From Sulfuricurvum sp. (GTDB lineage: Bacteria > Campylobacterota > Campylobacteria > Campylobacterales > Sulfurimonadaceae): a stretch of 64,000 nt of DNA. The position numbers and the translations under genes were made by a program. Positions within the stretch are counted from its first letter, which is position 1. Every line of letters starts with the position of its first letter. Positions 2,890-54,138 of the stretch are shown in pieces. The stretch is taken from assembly GCF_028681615.1 (NCBI RefSeq), contig NZ_JAQUHV010000003.1, positions 62,001-126,000 of the forward strand. Reading direction: 5' to 3'. Under the pieces are notes generated by a model. The model did no database searches. It had not been told where the DNA came from and saw only the letters and a program-made list of their open reading frames with translations.

Positions 2890-5144
2890 TAGACTCCTTT
2901 TGTCCGAAGAAACGGGATAAATGAATAAATTTTTTGCATGAGTTGTATCCTTGTATGATTAAAAATAACCATAAGTTTTAGCTCATGGCGTATACGGCGA
3001 AGCAATGAGAGAAACGCTCCGGCTGGAGTTGGATGGACTTCGAGTTTTTCATATTCGATCCACTTTGTATTTTGTCCAAAAATAATTCCCAATAATACAC
3101 GTCGCAGGTTGAAATCGCTTTCTGCTTTGTTAAATCGGAAAATTGCGCTATTTTTGAAAGTGTGCAGGTATTTGCCCTGAATGAATACATTGCGACCATT
3201 TTCTTCTTGGATCAGCAGTGAACAGTGGCTATCGGTTTTGAGCTTTTCAATAACTACACGGAGCACCTGGTCTTCAAATGTGATGGCAATTCCCCCCATC
3301 GAAATATCCGAAATTATGCCGTAAAATGTTTCGAAGCCAATATTTAGAATAACGGTTTCATTCGATGGGATACGTGCGTAACGGCGTAACTGCCGTTTTT
3401 CATAAACAATGACAAGTGCTGAGAGGATGAGAAACAGGTTGAATATATTCCATATCATAGTTATGATTGTTACCGAAATGAGTTCTGGATCGGTAATGAG
3501 ACGATAGATTCCCATCGCAAATCCAAGAAGAATCAACGTAAAGATGATCACAAAAGGGGTATAGAGCTGGCTGATAAAATCCTCTTCAGCATTTTCTCCT
3601 TTGGGTGTCACAGCAAATTCTGGTGCGCGTGGATTCATGAAAACGGAAAAAATTGCGGGAAGGGTAAATAGTGAAAGCGCCGTTTCATATACTTCGGAAT
3701 AAAAATTCCATCTCACTTCTTTATACAAATAATAGGAAGTAAGAATCGAAAGGATCAGATGCGGAATAGGATAGACTAGGATTTCTATCGGTGTCGCGTG
3801 ATAGATACGAAGTCCGAAAAGAAGATATGCCAACGGTGCAACCAAGTAAACAACACGGGCGTAAGAGAAAAACCAGAAAAAGCTGGCGCTGAAATAACTT
3901 AATTTCTGATGCAGTTTGAGAGGCTTGAAAAGAGGGTTGCTGAGTAAAAATATTTGTACCATACCTTGAGACCAGCGAACTCTCTGCAGCACAAGAGCAC
4001 TGAAGGTTTCAGGTTGTAAGCCGCGGATCATCGGAATGGCGATATAAGCACTTTTGTAGCCCATGGCATGAAGTTTCAAGGCAGTTTCTGCATCTTCGGT
4101 AATCGTTTCCCCTGCAATTCCTCCCGCAAGGTCGAGATGACTGCGTCGAAGAAGGGCAGCTGAACCACAAAAAAAGGAACTTTCCCAAAAATCATGACCT
4201 TTTTGAATGTGGTAATAAAACATTTCATTTTCGGACGGTGCGTTTCGGAAAATTCCCATATTTTTTTCAATAGGATCGGGGTTGTAAAAAGCGTGAGGTG
4301 TTTGTACAAGGAATATTTGGGAATCGTTTAAAAATTCACCAACGGTGTTTTTGAGAAAATTCTGGGTTGGGATATGGTCGCAATCAAGAATTAAGATCAA
4401 TTCGCCGTCGAGTTGTTGCAATGCGCTGTTGATATTTCCTGCTTTAGCATTGAGATTTTTGGCACGTGTGATGTAAGTAAACTCATTTTTGGTACAAAAT
4501 TCTTGAAACCGCTTTCTCCTTTCAATGGCAACGGCGCGTTTGTCGGGATCAGAATCGTTGATTTTTTGATCGGATCCCCCATCGTCGAGAATACAGACTC
4601 GTAGTTTGTGTTGAGGATAGACCATCATGGAAGCTGCTAGCACCGTATCGACGACTATATCGAAATCCTCGTTATAGGTTGGGATGAGGACATCGACCGA
4701 AGGGAGTTCGTCAATAGGGACATTTTGGATATCGATCGGTTTACGCTCAAGCAGATGAAGCGAAGTGAATATCCCAAGGCTTGAAATGATAATACCGTAG
4801 AGCTCTGCTATTAAAAGTAAAAGTGTGCCGATATAATCAAGAAATCCAGTATAGAGGATGGTGCCCGTTATTCTCCAGAAAATGTATCGCCAGGAAACGA
4901 AGAGGGAAATTAATAAAAGTAACAGACGTATTTTGTCAGCAAAATTAAAAAAAAGTGCAAAAAGATAAAGCGATACTGCCCCATAGGCAACGAATCCTTG
5001 AGCGGAATTATTAAAATGGGACGATACAAAAAAAATGAGTGTTGAAAAAAAGAAGATACTAACGACCAAGGGGTGCTTGACAATCAAACTGTCAAGTACT
5101 CTTTTGTATTTTTTAAAGGATAATGTTACCCTTGGAAAAAACAT
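2889..5144 (-). CDS. bcsA: Cellulose synthase catalytic subunit (UDP-forming) BcsA with PilZ domain
   Basis: Processive family-2 glycosyltransferase that polymerises UDP-glucose into beta-1,4-glucan and moves it across the inner membrane. It has 751 residues. Membrane helices lie at about 26-130. The GT core contains DDGGSD (about 187), DCD (about 254), TED (about 350) and QRVRW (about 387, the QxxRW signature). Further helices cover about 410-575. A C-terminal PilZ domain has RRYAR (RxxxR) and DISMGG (DxSxxG), both intact, so activation by c-di-GMP is expected. It starts 10 bases after a small ORF and overlaps bcsB. No bcsC or bcsQ is visible; a bcsC could lie beyond the left edge. Confidence 0.97.
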   Translation of the reverse strand: MFFPRVTLSFKKYKRVLDSLIVKHPLVVSIFFFSTLIFFVSSHFNNSAQGFVAYGAVSLYLFALFFNFADKIRLLLLLISLFVSWRYIFWRITGTILYTGFLDYIGTLLLLIAELYGIIISSLGIFTSLHLLERKPIDIQNVPIDELPSVDVLIPTYNEDFDIVVDTVLAASMMVYPQHKLRVCILDDGGSDQKINDSDPDKRAVAIERRKRFQEFCTKNEFTYITRAKNLNAKAGNINSALQQLDGELILILDCDHIPTQNFLKNTVGEFLNDSQIFLVQTPHAFYNPDPIEKNMGIFRNAPSENEMFYYHIQKGHDFWESSFFCGSAALLRRSHLDLAGGIAGETITEDAETALKLHAMGYKSAYIAIPMIRGLQPETFSALVLQRVRWSQGMVQIFLLSNPLFKPLKLHQKLSYFSASFFWFFSYARVVYLVAPLAYLLFGLRIYHATPIEILVYPIPHLILSILTSYYLYKEVRWNFYSEVYETALSLFTLPAIFSVFMNPRAPEFAVTPKGENAEEDFISQLYTPFVIIFTLILLGFAMGIYRLITDPELISVTIITMIWNIFNLFLILSALVIVYEKRQLRRYARIPSNETVILNIGFETFYGIISDISMGGIAITFEDQVLRVVIEKLKTDSHCSLLIQEENGRNVFIQGKYLHTFKNSAIFRFNKAESDFNLRRVLLGIIFGQNTKWIEYEKLEVHPTPAGAFLSLLRRIRHELKLMVIFNHTRIQLMQKIYSFIPFLRTKGV

Positions 5145-43446: not shown

Positions 43447-43968
43447 TTACTCTTTATAGTTTTTAATAGCGTCTTCAAGGATTCTAGCAGCAGAAGCTTT
43501 GTCTTCAAATCCTTTTACTTTAACCCATTTACCCGGTTCAAGCATTTTGTAGGTTTCAAAGAAGTTTTTGATTTTTGCCAATGTATGTTTAGGGATATCG
43601 GCAAGATCTTGAATCTCTTCAAATGTTGGATCAATTTTTGAAGTCGGAACGGCAAGAAGTTTTTCATCGATTCCGCTTTCGTCTTCCATAATTAAAACTC
43701 CGACTAAACGGCAATTTGTTACGCATCCTTCTACCATAGGATATTCGGTAAGGATCAAGATGTCCGCCGGATCACCGTCTTGTGAAAGTGTTTTGTTGAC
43801 AAAGCCGTAGTTTGCCGGATAGTACATAGCCGAATGCATAACGCGGTCAAGTACCAATGCACCGCTCTCTTTTTCAACTTCATACTTGATGTTTGATCCG
43901 CATGCAATCTCAATAATTGCTTTGACTTTATCCGGATTTTCTCCGTAACCGATTTTGCTAAGATCCAT
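43447..43968 (-). CDS. ppa: Inorganic pyrophosphatase
   Basis: Soluble family-I pyrophosphatase of 173 residues, hydrolysing PPi to two phosphates and so pulling biosynthetic reactions forward. Conserved elements are visible: the Lys/Glu strand IKYEVEKESG, DRVMHSAMYYPANYGF, the metal-binding DGDPADILIL and a late VKVKGFEDK. Length and order are normal for the family. GGAGAGAT precedes the ATG. A small membrane protein gene follows closely. Confidence 0.96.
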   Translation of the reverse strand: MDLSKIGYGENPDKVKAIIEIACGSNIKYEVEKESGALVLDRVMHSAMYYPANYGFVNKTLSQDGDPADILILTEYPMVEGCVTNCRLVGVLIMEDESGIDEKLLAVPTSKIDPTFEEIQDLADIPKHTLAKIKNFFETYKMLEPGKWVKVKGFEDKASAARILEDAIKNYKE

Positions 43969-44122: not shown

Positions 44123-44443
44123 GTGGGATTACTCAATAAAGTAATGAAATATTTTTCAGTATTTCAATCCAACAATGCCCCGAAATCTCTAAACTTTGCA
44201 AGTGAGGGTGCCGTAATGGCTTCTGAAACATCATCGTTAGATCGTATAGAGGGTGCTAAAATAGCAGCAATAGCTGCAGCTTTGCATCATCATGATCTGG
44301 AAAATAATGATGTGAGAGCAAAAGTAGCTGCAATTGCAGCAGCGATCCACCACCATGAAACCGAGAATTCGCAAAATGGCGGTTTACTCGGTGTGGCTGC
44401 AGTGATTGCGGCGATCCACCACCACAACAATCTAATGAAGTAG
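44123..44443 (+). CDS. OadG-tail-like protein with three AAxAAxHHH repeats
   Basis: A 106-residue soluble protein with a GTG start (GGGGATAGCGA upstream). After about 40 polar residues it has three near-copies of one motif: AAIAAALHHH (HHH at 55-57), AAIAAAIHHH (76-78) and AAVIAAIHHH (99-101), spaced 21 and 23 residues. From memory, the same motif occurs once at the C-terminus of the OadG (gamma) subunit of oxaloacetate decarboxylase, where it contacts the alpha subunit and binds zinc. Here the OadG membrane helix is absent and the tail is triplicated. oadA starts 11 bases downstream. I infer an OadA-binding or metallating partner. Confidence 0.8.
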   Translation: MGLLNKVMKYFSVFQSNNAPKSLNFASEGAVMASETSSLDRIEGAKIAAIAAALHHHDLENNDVRAKVAAIAAAIHHHETENSQNGGLLGVAAVIAAIHHHNNLMK

Positions 44444-44454
44444 GGATGACGTAA

Positions 44455-46290
44455 ATGGCAAAAAAATACATCGATATTATGGACACTACTTTCCGTGACG
44501 GTTTTCAGTCAGTTTTCGGCGGTCGTGTACTTATGGAAGATTTCTTCCCTGCCCTTGAGGCAGCCAAAGAGGCAGGAATCCGACATTTCGAATTTGGAGG
44601 CGGTGCCCGTTTCCAAAGCCTTTTTTTCTATCTGAATGAAAATGCATTTGATATGATGGACCGTTTCCGTGCCATCGTAGGACCGGATGCGAACCTTCAA
44701 ACATTGGCGCGTGGAGTCAATACGGTAATGCTTGATACCGGCAGTCGCGAGATGGTTGATTTACATGCCAAGATGTTTAAAAAACACGGAACAACTACAA
44801 TTCGTAATTTCGACGCACTCAATGATGTCGAAAATCTCAAATATTCCGGTGAACGAATCGTCCATCACGGGTTGAAACATGAAGTGGTCGTCACTATGAT
44901 GGATCTTCCTCCGGGGTGTGTCGGTGCACATGATGTTGCATTCTACGAAAAAACACTTCGTGAAATTTTAGATTCCGGTATCCCGTACCACTCTATTTGT
45001 TTTAAAGATGCAAGTGGAACTTCGAGTCCTCAAAAAGTCTTTGAAACCATTCAAATGGCTCGACGCTTAGTTCCGGAAGGGACTCATTTGCGTCTTCATA
45101 CGCATGAGACCGCTGGTGTGAGCGTAGCATGTTATCTTGCTGCTCTGGATGCGGGTATTGACGGTATCGATATGGCTGCGGCTCCTGTGAGCGGCGGTAC
45201 ATCACAACCCGATATTTTAACGATGCTGCACGCAGTAAAAGGTAAAAATTTCGATCTCGGCGGACTTGAACTCGAAAAAATTCTAAAATACGAAGATGTA
45301 TTGGGTGATTGTTTAAAAGATTACTTCATGCCTCCTGAAGCAACACAGGTTTCACCTCTTATTCCGTTCTCTCCGATGCCGGGTGGAGCGTTGACAGCGA
45401 ATACGCAAATGATGCGCGACAACAATATGTTGGATCGTTATCCTGAAGTTATTCGTGCAATGCGTGAAGTAGTTGAAAAAGGGGGATACGGTACATCGGT
45501 AACTCCGGTTTCTCAATTTTATTTCCAACAAGCGCTTAACAATGCACTGATGGGGCCATGGAAAAAAATTGCACCGGGCTATGGAAAAATGGTTTTGGGT
45601 TACTTCGGTAAAACTCCTACTGCTCCGGATCCGGAAGTGGTGCGTATAGCAGCGGAACAACTCAAACTCGAACCGACGACCGATAATGCGATCGATATTG
45701 CAGACCGAGATGAGACCAAATCGGTAGCGTATTGGACTAAAAAATTGAGCGATGAAGGCATCGAAGCTACAGATGAAAATATTTTCATCGCCGCTTCATG
45801 CGATGTCAAAGGAATTGCATTCCTCAAAGGGGAAGCAACCGTTAATGTTCGCAAAAATAGCCCGAAAACGGCTGAATCAACACAATCAAATCAATCACAA
45901 CAGGAGAATCTTCTTATGGCAAACGGCACTTACACAGTTATCGTAGACGGACAACAATATAATGTACAAATCGTAGGCGGCAACGCAAGCGTTCAAGTAG
46001 CACCGACTGTAGTCGCGGCACCTGCGGCAGTAGCGGCACCGGTCGCTCCGGCAGCACCTGCAGCCCCAGCGGTTAATGCAAATGCTATTTGTGCTGAGCT
46101 TCCGGGTTCAGTATTTAAATTGGTTGCATCTGTAGGCGACAGTGTAAATGTCGGTGATAAAATCATGATTCTTGAAGCGATGAAAATGGAGATCGACGTA
46201 GTTGCTCCGCGTGCAGGTAAAGTTACATCCATTAATGTAAATGTTAATGACAAAATCGAGGCTGGCCAAGTATTGGCTGTCGTAGAGTAA
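44455..46290 (+). CDS. oadA: Oxaloacetate decarboxylase alpha / pyruvate carboxylase B-type carboxyltransferase with biotinyl domain
   Basis: A 611-residue biotin enzyme. The carboxyltransferase TIM barrel begins with DTTFRDGFQS (metal and catalytic residues) and includes LHTHETAGVSV. The PYC_OADA association domain spans about 320-460. A Gln/Ser then Ala/Pro linker (about 480-535) leads to the biotinyl domain with EAMKMEID. It may act as OadA with a membrane OadB or, as in Campylobacter, as PycB with a biotin carboxylase PycA; neither partner is in the window. It follows the His-repeat gene by 11 bases. An internal Shine-Dalgarno and ATG at 45916 mark the start of the biotin part. Confidence 0.93.
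   Translation: MAKKYIDIMDTTFRDGFQSVFGGRVLMEDFFPALEAAKEAGIRHFEFGGGARFQSLFFYLNENAFDMMDRFRAIVGPDANLQTLARGVNTVMLDTGSREMVDLHAKMFKKHGTTTIRNFDALNDVENLKYSGERIVHHGLKHEVVVTMMDLPPGCVGAHDVAFYEKTLREILDSGIPYHSICFKDASGTSSPQKVFETIQMARRLVPEGTHLRLHTHETAGVSVACYLAALDAGIDGIDMAAAPVSGGTSQPDILTMLHAVKGKNFDLGGLELEKILKYEDVLGDCLKDYFMPPEATQVSPLIPFSPMPGGALTANTQMMRDNNMLDRYPEVIRAMREVVEKGGYGTSVTPVSQFYFQQALNNALMGPWKKIAPGYGKMVLGYFGKTPTAPDPEVVRIAAEQLKLEPTTDNAIDIADRDETKSVAYWTKKLSDEGIEATDENIFIAASCDVKGIAFLKGEATVNVRKNSPKTAESTQSNQSQQENLLMANGTYTVIVDGQQYNVQIVGGNASVQVAPTVVAAPAAVAAPVAPAAPAAPAVNANAICAELPGSVFKLVASVGDSVNVGDKIMILEAMKMEIDVVAPRAGKVTSINVNVNDKIEAGQVLAVVE
45902..45918 (+). promoter_or_regulatory. Internal ribosome-binding site and in-frame ATG within oadA
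   Basis: AGGAG (45902-45906) stands 9 bases before an in-frame ATG (45916-45918, codon 488). Translation from here would give a 124-residue biotin-carrier protein starting MANGTYTVIVDGQQ. The preceding linker (TQSNQSQQENLL) looks like translated intergenic sequence. Confidence 0.5.
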
Positions 46291-53218: not shown

Positions 53219-53578
53219 CTAGTGCCTTTTTATACGTTCTAATGCAACAACAGCTATAGCATAGTCACCATCATGTGTGATGGATACAGACATGTCGGTA
53301 ATATCGAAATACTCACGCACTTTTGATGTTAGAGAGATGAGTGGAGCCCCTTTTGGGGTTTTGGACAGGATAATGTCGTGGAAACTGCATTCTGCGCCTA
53401 TACCGCAGCCTAAAGCTTTGGCACATGCTTCTTTGGCAGCCCAGAATCCTGCCGCATTGCGATTGTTTTTTATCAGTTCTATTTCACTTTTAGATAAAAA
53501 CTTTTGCAATCCGCGATCGCCGAAACGCTCTATAAAGCGTTCCATACGATCCATTTTGATGAGGTCAATACCAATCAT
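53219..53578 (-). CDS. acpS: Holo-[acyl-carrier-protein] synthase
   Basis: A 119-residue phosphopantetheinyl transferase that activates the acyl carrier protein. The two family motifs are GIDLIKMDRMERF (metal-binding Asp) and FWAAKEACAKALGCGIG (Glu and Lys), followed by SITHDGDYAIAVV. Its start overlaps the fliL stop by 4 bases, the same fliL-acpS coupling seen in Helicobacter. Confidence 0.96.
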   Translation of the reverse strand: MIGIDLIKMDRMERFIERFGDRGLQKFLSKSEIELIKNNRNAAGFWAAKEACAKALGCGIGAECSFHDIILSKTPKGAPLISLTSKVREYFDITDMSVSITHDGDYAIAVVALERIKRH

Positions 53579-54138
53579 TGCACCACAAAGTCTGTAAAGT
53601 AAACATGTTGAACTTTACCGTCTTTAAGATGTCTATTGAGTTCATGCACGATCTCTTCTTTGAGTTTTTCTTTTCCTTTGACCGTGGAGATCTCTTCCAA
53701 CGATTTAGAAGAGAGGATACGGATAATAATATCTCTAAAGACCGGTTTTTTCTCTTCGAGTTCAGGGCTGAGTTCTTTACCGCCCATTTCGAGATTCATC
53801 TCAACTTTGAGATAGCGTCGGCCGCTTTCTGAGAGGAGATTGACGGTAAAAGTCTCAAGTGGGAACATCAAGCCGATCTCTGTCGATGTTTCTTCTCCCC
53901 CTCCGGAGGATTCACCGCCGCTTGCATGTTCGGCTTCAGCCGGAGCCGGAGCTTCTTTATGAGAAGCTTCGGCATTTTTTGCCGCTGCCTCGTCATTTCC
54001 CATCATTAAAAAAGCAACTACACCGCCGATGATTAAAATCAGAACCAAAACTCCGATGATAATCACGAGGAGCATATTCCCCTTTTTCTTCTTTCCCTCT
54101 TCTTCCGGGGCAGTCTCTTCTTTCTCTTTTTCAGCCAT
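53575..54138 (-). CDS. fliL: Flagellar basal body-associated protein FliL
   Basis: A 187-residue inner-membrane protein that supports stator function around the flagellar motor. A charged N-terminus (AEKEKEETAPEEEGKKKK) precedes one membrane helix (LLVIIIGVLVLILIIGGVVAFLM). A Ala/Glu/Ser-rich linker follows, then the conserved periplasmic domain (FPLETFTVNLLSESGRRYLKVEM, LRDIIIRILSSKSLEEI-like). It ends in VQHVYFTDFVVQ, typical of the family. GAGGAGC precedes the ATG. It is coupled to acpS and divergent from mlaE. Confidence 0.95.
   Translation of the reverse strand: MAEKEKEETAPEEEGKKKKGNMLLVIIIGVLVLILIIGGVVAFLMMGNDEAAAKNAEASHKEAPAPAEAEHASGGESSGGGEETSTEIGLMFPLETFTVNLLSESGRRYLKVEMNLEMGGKELSPELEEKKPVFRDIIIRILSSKSLEEISTVKGKEKLKEEIVHELNRHLKDGKVQHVYFTDFVVQ

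Follow-up and report, generated by a model that had tools for sequence, protein, structure and literature searches.

Sodium-pump decarboxylases and soluble pyruvate carboxylases use the same kind of carboxyltransferase subunit, and to our knowledge no change between pump and soluble carboxylase, in either direction, has been documented at the level of a small assembly subunit. The locus studied here, part of a 64,000-nucleotide stretch (the window) of the genome of Sulfuricurvum sp., a sulfur-oxidising bacterium, raises the question of what a protein without a membrane helix does when it is encoded directly before oadA and repeats three times a unit resembling the tail of OadG, the gamma subunit and small membrane anchor of the oxaloacetate decarboxylase Na+ pump. 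The gene has a GTG start and encodes 106 amino acids, and 11 intergenic bases separate it from the oadA ATG at 44455 (see table). Its units each consist of an Ala-rich helix followed by HHH (residues 55-57, 76-78 and 99-101). No transmembrane segment was found in the protein: its best 19-residue hydropathy is 1.08, whereas the canonical OadG of this genome reaches 1.90 and further canonical OadGs 2.2-3.0. In line with the preliminary description of the locus, the open reading frame, coordinates and hydropathy thus agree on three units, 106 residues, no membrane helix and a position 11 bases before oadA. The three HHH runs are not due to chance, since three never appeared together when the protein was shuffled 200,000 times, no other frame of at least 60 amino acids in the window (316 frames) has more than one, and 26 genomes keep all three units.

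Coordinates of the features at the locus (window positions)
Feature	Position	Strand	Details
Inorganic pyrophosphatase gene	43447..43968	-	upstream neighbour of the soluble gene
Gene for the three-unit soluble derivative of OadG	44123..44443	+	ORF, Pfam, 26/41 genus genomes, dN/dS
Tail unit 1, GAKIAAIAAALHHH	44252..44293	+	residues 44-57; dN/dS 0.06
Tail unit 2, RAKVAAIAAAIHHH	44315..44356	+	residues 65-78; dN/dS 0.06
Tail unit 3, LLGVAAVIAAIHHH	44384..44425	+	residues 88-101; dN/dS 0.08; HHR in six relatives
oadA / pycB	44455..46290	+	carboxyltransferase, association and biotin-carrier domains; Pfam HMGL-like, PYC_OADA, Biotin_lipoyl
OadA association-domain beta-sheet, predicted	45922..45999	+	residues 490-515; low-confidence model strands
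OadA biotin attachment motif EAMKMEI	46174..46194	+	Biotin_lipoyl match

A relation to OadG tails, as first suggested from the repeats, was confirmed by the Pfam profile OAD_gamma (PF04277), which the protein matches with 30 bits, reaching the cut-off of 27. This weak but significant match pairs residues 7-57 with profile positions 31-75 only and so starts past most of the membrane-helix part of the profile. Most soluble orthologs score lower or are missed by the same profile, TIGR01195 gives 27.7 bits, below its cut-off of 36.05, and a PDB sequence search with the protein returned nothing significant. The protein is like OadG in having an Ala-rich tail helix followed by a His cluster and in the position of its gene directly before oadA. 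It differs in being soluble, without the N-terminal transmembrane helix of OadG, and in carrying three tandem units in all 26 genomes that have it, whereas OadG has a single C-terminal tail. A further OAD_gamma match in the window, at 53911-54078, was rejected as an OadG; it is weak, covers mainly the membrane-helix part of the profile, and is a false positive within FliL (53575-54138, minus strand).

The soluble form is present in 26 of 41 Sulfuricurvum genomes and lies directly upstream of oadA in every one of them, so that the conservation beside oadA on which the preliminary description depended does hold in relatives. The gap between the two genes is 11 or 12 bases in most carriers, with extremes of 5 and 104. 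Nine other Sulfuricurvum genomes have at the same place a canonical OadG, with one membrane helix and one HHH tail, and oadB after oadA. The inorganic pyrophosphatase gene found upstream in the window also stands upstream of the canonical oadGAB in one of these, the sister-clade genome G035, which identifies the two arrangements as the same locus. The OadA tree puts the soluble carriers into a single clade, to which G016 is the nearest outside branch; their sister within the genus is the set of operon genomes. A wider distribution over the Campylobacterota was not borne out: of 397 genomes from this phylum, only those of the one Sulfuricurvum clade have the three-unit form, and no viral contig carries it. 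Outside the clade oadG-oadA-oadB is usual, with exceptions, among the 80 Campylobacterota loci that were read; four OadA loci (L120, L132, L135 and L145) have neither gamma nor oadB by the pattern used and may be further pump-free forms.

Because the sister genomes have oadG-oadA-oadB at the same locus, it is well supported that the 106-residue protein is an OadG without its helix, its alpha-binding tail triplicated, in one lineage. Synteny and tree support a sodium-pump operon, oadG-oadA-oadB, at this locus in the Sulfuricurvum ancestor. One lineage has since, in whichever order, lost oadB and the helix of oadG and multiplied the C-terminal alpha-binding tail to three tandem units. No natural soluble OadG was found in papers mentioning both OadG and soluble. 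The tail and the subunit are known; what is new is their combination, without a membrane helix, in three copies and fixed in one lineage.

Related changes occur elsewhere. Membrane OadGs with two tails, for example RIIAAITAAIMYHRSKQDNKKVIAAVTAAIMHH, are encoded at L082 (about 4650-4998) and at L189 of G131 (minus strand), apparently by separate duplications of the tail unit. In Sulfurimonas sp. S03.Bin072 (L112), just upstream of position 5001, a helix-less gamma of 39 residues with one tail overlaps the oadA start, with no oadB nearby and with the same CheV and molybdopterin-oxidoreductase neighbours as in the window; here the membrane helix was lost independently. Each of these genes, also placed before oadA, shows one change, tail duplication or helix loss, whereas the Sulfuricurvum form unites both and has three copies.

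As the soluble form arose where oadB was lost, it could be asked whether it is a functionless, decaying remnant of oadG whose repeats grew by slippage. The linker (residues 21-42) fits such decay, drifting nearly freely (pN/pS 0.72 in 22 genomes) and being mostly lost in G007, G033 and G040. The rest of the gene does not: it is intact, with three units, just ahead of oadA in all 26 genomes, and in 22 genomes its median dN/dS is 0.145, compared with 0.046 for OadA, while the units themselves stand at only 0.06-0.08, all estimated from pairs with pS between 0.05 and 0.6 and with synonymous sites near saturation in many pairs. These unit values indicate that selection preserves the sequence of each unit individually, and we regard decay as highly improbable. 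The His clusters, by comparison, are less uniform than first described: the HHH units are present, but HHH is not invariant, HH being constant while the third His varies and becomes Arg in unit 3 of six genomes.

This variation bears on a reading in which the protein is no scaffold but a booster, each unit speeding carboxyl transfer on its own, perhaps in a metal-bound state, with three copies raising the local concentration. OadG reportedly stimulates carboxyl transfer and contains Zn2+ (PMC2881705), and selection at the level of the unit is compatible with such a role. Nevertheless, a three-His metal site is not conserved, given HHR in unit 3 and canonical OadG tails that, in other Campylobacterota genera, mostly have R, K or another residue after the final HH. 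The copy number is moreover constantly three, which a dosage effect would not demand, and we consider this reading quite improbable. A metal-chaperone role was rejected, the clusters being short and their third His variable, and the metal delivery envisaged earlier is likewise unsupported.

Which enzyme the protein accompanies depends on what OadA does in these organisms. OadA is present once in the window's genome (a single PF02436 match). In the model of its ortholog from L074, the closest fold is 5ks8_D (Z 43.8, rmsd 2.4, 446 aligned), the beta subunit of two-subunit pyruvate carboxylase; transcarboxylase 5S and OadA folds are tied with it at slightly lower Z. Three biotin carboxylase-type genes occur in the window's genome, among them accC (L063), which adjoins accB, and a stand-alone PycA-like biotin carboxylase of 495 amino acids (L064). 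PycA orthologs are found in all soluble carriers except the very incomplete assemblies G033 and G040. None was found in the operon-clade genomes G001, G022 and G037, as expected of a pure pump. The comparison with two-subunit pyruvate carboxylase (PycA + PycB) is therefore close on two counts: OadA is of the beta type, with carboxyltransferase and biotin carrier, and all reasonably complete carriers have a stand-alone biotin carboxylase as partner.

OadG works with OadB in the membrane, but 23 of the 26 soluble carriers have no OadB anywhere and no membrane OadG, which excludes a sodium pump of the known type for their OadA, and this lineage has mostly given up the pump. With OadB missing from these 23 and PycA kept, OadA in the carriers is probably a soluble enzyme of the pyruvate carboxylase type, as judged from gene content; a soluble enzyme, as proposed earlier, is accordingly the likely case. 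A similar case without OadB, in Sulfurospirillum cavolei, has been called pyruvate carboxylase (PMC6242987). The closest solved relative of the PycA found here is the small subunit of 2-oxoglutarate carboxylase, and 2-oxoglutarate carboxylation or the reverse decarboxylation may be putative alternatives for the OadA reaction. OadA function does not strictly depend on the soluble OadG-derived protein, as G016 keeps OadA and PycA and no gamma was found there.

In total, OadB occurs in 13 of the 41 genomes: the nine operon genomes, G027, and three soluble carriers, G000 (the window's genome), G012 and G030, in which it is accompanied by a canonical OadG elsewhere than at the soluble locus. The earlier remark that no oadB is adjacent thus stands, but the window's genome does hold a canonical oadG-oadB pair on another contig (contig 13, 19491-21091, L001). 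This pair adjoins a predicted transporter gene and has no oadA of its own. The OadB tree places the pairs of G000 and G012 beside G018, and G030's pair beside G027, a grouping that makes at least two fresh gains of the pair probable; the one in the window's genome was probably re-acquired within the genus. In the window's genome one OadA may therefore serve two systems.

Known complexes suggest how the protein could engage OadA. In the oxaloacetate decarboxylase (OAD) of Salmonella, OadB and OadG assemble as a beta3gamma3 hexamer (PMC7274780). According to that paper, which cites Balsera 2011, deletion of the OadG tail releases alpha, and the isolated tail binds alpha at 1:2 and promotes tetramers; the same account describes beta3gamma3 as displaying three tails, to which up to six alpha could bind (PMC7274780). 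In two-subunit pyruvate carboxylase, the C-terminal helix of PycA, all-hydrophobic and mainly Ala, is sandwiched by sheets that two beta subunits contribute (PMC5059739). These two papers give the region of OadA residues 490-515 its socket role, and the modelled association-domain sheet there is expected to form the socket for the tail helices. Given the 1:2 ratio and the Ala-rich helix common to the OadG tail and PycA, we infer that one socket could be filled by either. The units resemble the PycA helix (BT-like domain, 5ks8, PMC5059739) in being Ala-rich, and OadA resembles the beta subunit in whose socket that helix sits; but the PycA helix is single and part of the biotin carboxylase chain, whereas the three copies here are on a separate small protein that would dock by analogy. 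A non-OadG subunit has also been proposed as a functional stand-in for OadG, namely OadH of Enterococcus faecalis (PMC6193673), although OadH belongs to a membrane pump with OadB and a separate OadD.

On these grounds the 106-residue protein probably serves OadA as a soluble accessory subunit, and by analogy with the known complexes a scaffold function would follow. We favour, with some reserve, a remodelled OadG that gives OadA dimers a plug or a scaffold. Ala-rich helices with a terminal HH(H/R) would each fill one beta-sheet socket between the association domains of two OadA chains, one three-unit chain could hold up to three OadA dimers, and it would thereby imitate, without a membrane, the three tails of the beta3-gamma3 OadB-OadG complex. 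PycA would supply the biotin carboxylase, and OadA would make oxaloacetate as a soluble enzyme of the pyruvate carboxylase type. A more far-reaching proposal, that this soluble three-pronged scaffold replaces the OadB-OadG platform and that the window's OadA is shared by carboxylase and re-acquired pump according to which helix fills the socket, appears to us possible but doubtful.

The main rival starts from the PycA C-terminus, a helix-like segment with a pattern similar to that of the tail units (for example MKHIAAVIEAINKNN compared with KVAAIAAALHHH). As this helix may fill the same socket, the tails would compete rather than scaffold, displacing it or, in the window's genome, the tail of membrane OadG; like a switch, the protein would then set the share of OadA open to carboxylation or to the sodium pump and would not build up a larger enzyme. 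The window's genome, with one OadA, one PycA, one oadG-oadB pair and the soluble protein, indeed offers one socket and three possible plugs. In 23 of the 26 carriers, however, there is no OadG or OadB to compete with, and the spacing of 11-12 bases before oadA, which most carriers share, favours a stoichiometric subunit over a regulator. We hold competition to be unlikely.

Structure prediction contributes little to this choice. The oadA and tail genes of L074 were tethered in frame by reading through the stop codons, a computational device, and modelled with AlphaFold2 (55 rows); a canonical OadG-OadA pair of L087 served as control. The L074 model has three helices (33-46, 52-71 and 79-94) that stop close to their respective His clusters, at a pLDDT of about 40-56; the association-domain strands are below 50, and the tails were placed without confidence on the one OadA chain. 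Confidence was likewise low in the control, with tails again placed without confidence, and the PDB alignments of both models did not extend to the tails. Since a single OadA chain cannot form a two-chain socket, the docking result carries little weight.

In conclusion, Sulfuricurvum holds within one genus the oadG-oadA-oadB operon, the gamma-less G016, the remodelled form and a probably re-acquired pump, which makes the transition between these states directly testable. The three-unit protein is, in addition, a natural soluble reagent for the effect of the OadG tail on OadA, which has so far been studied with truncated constructs.
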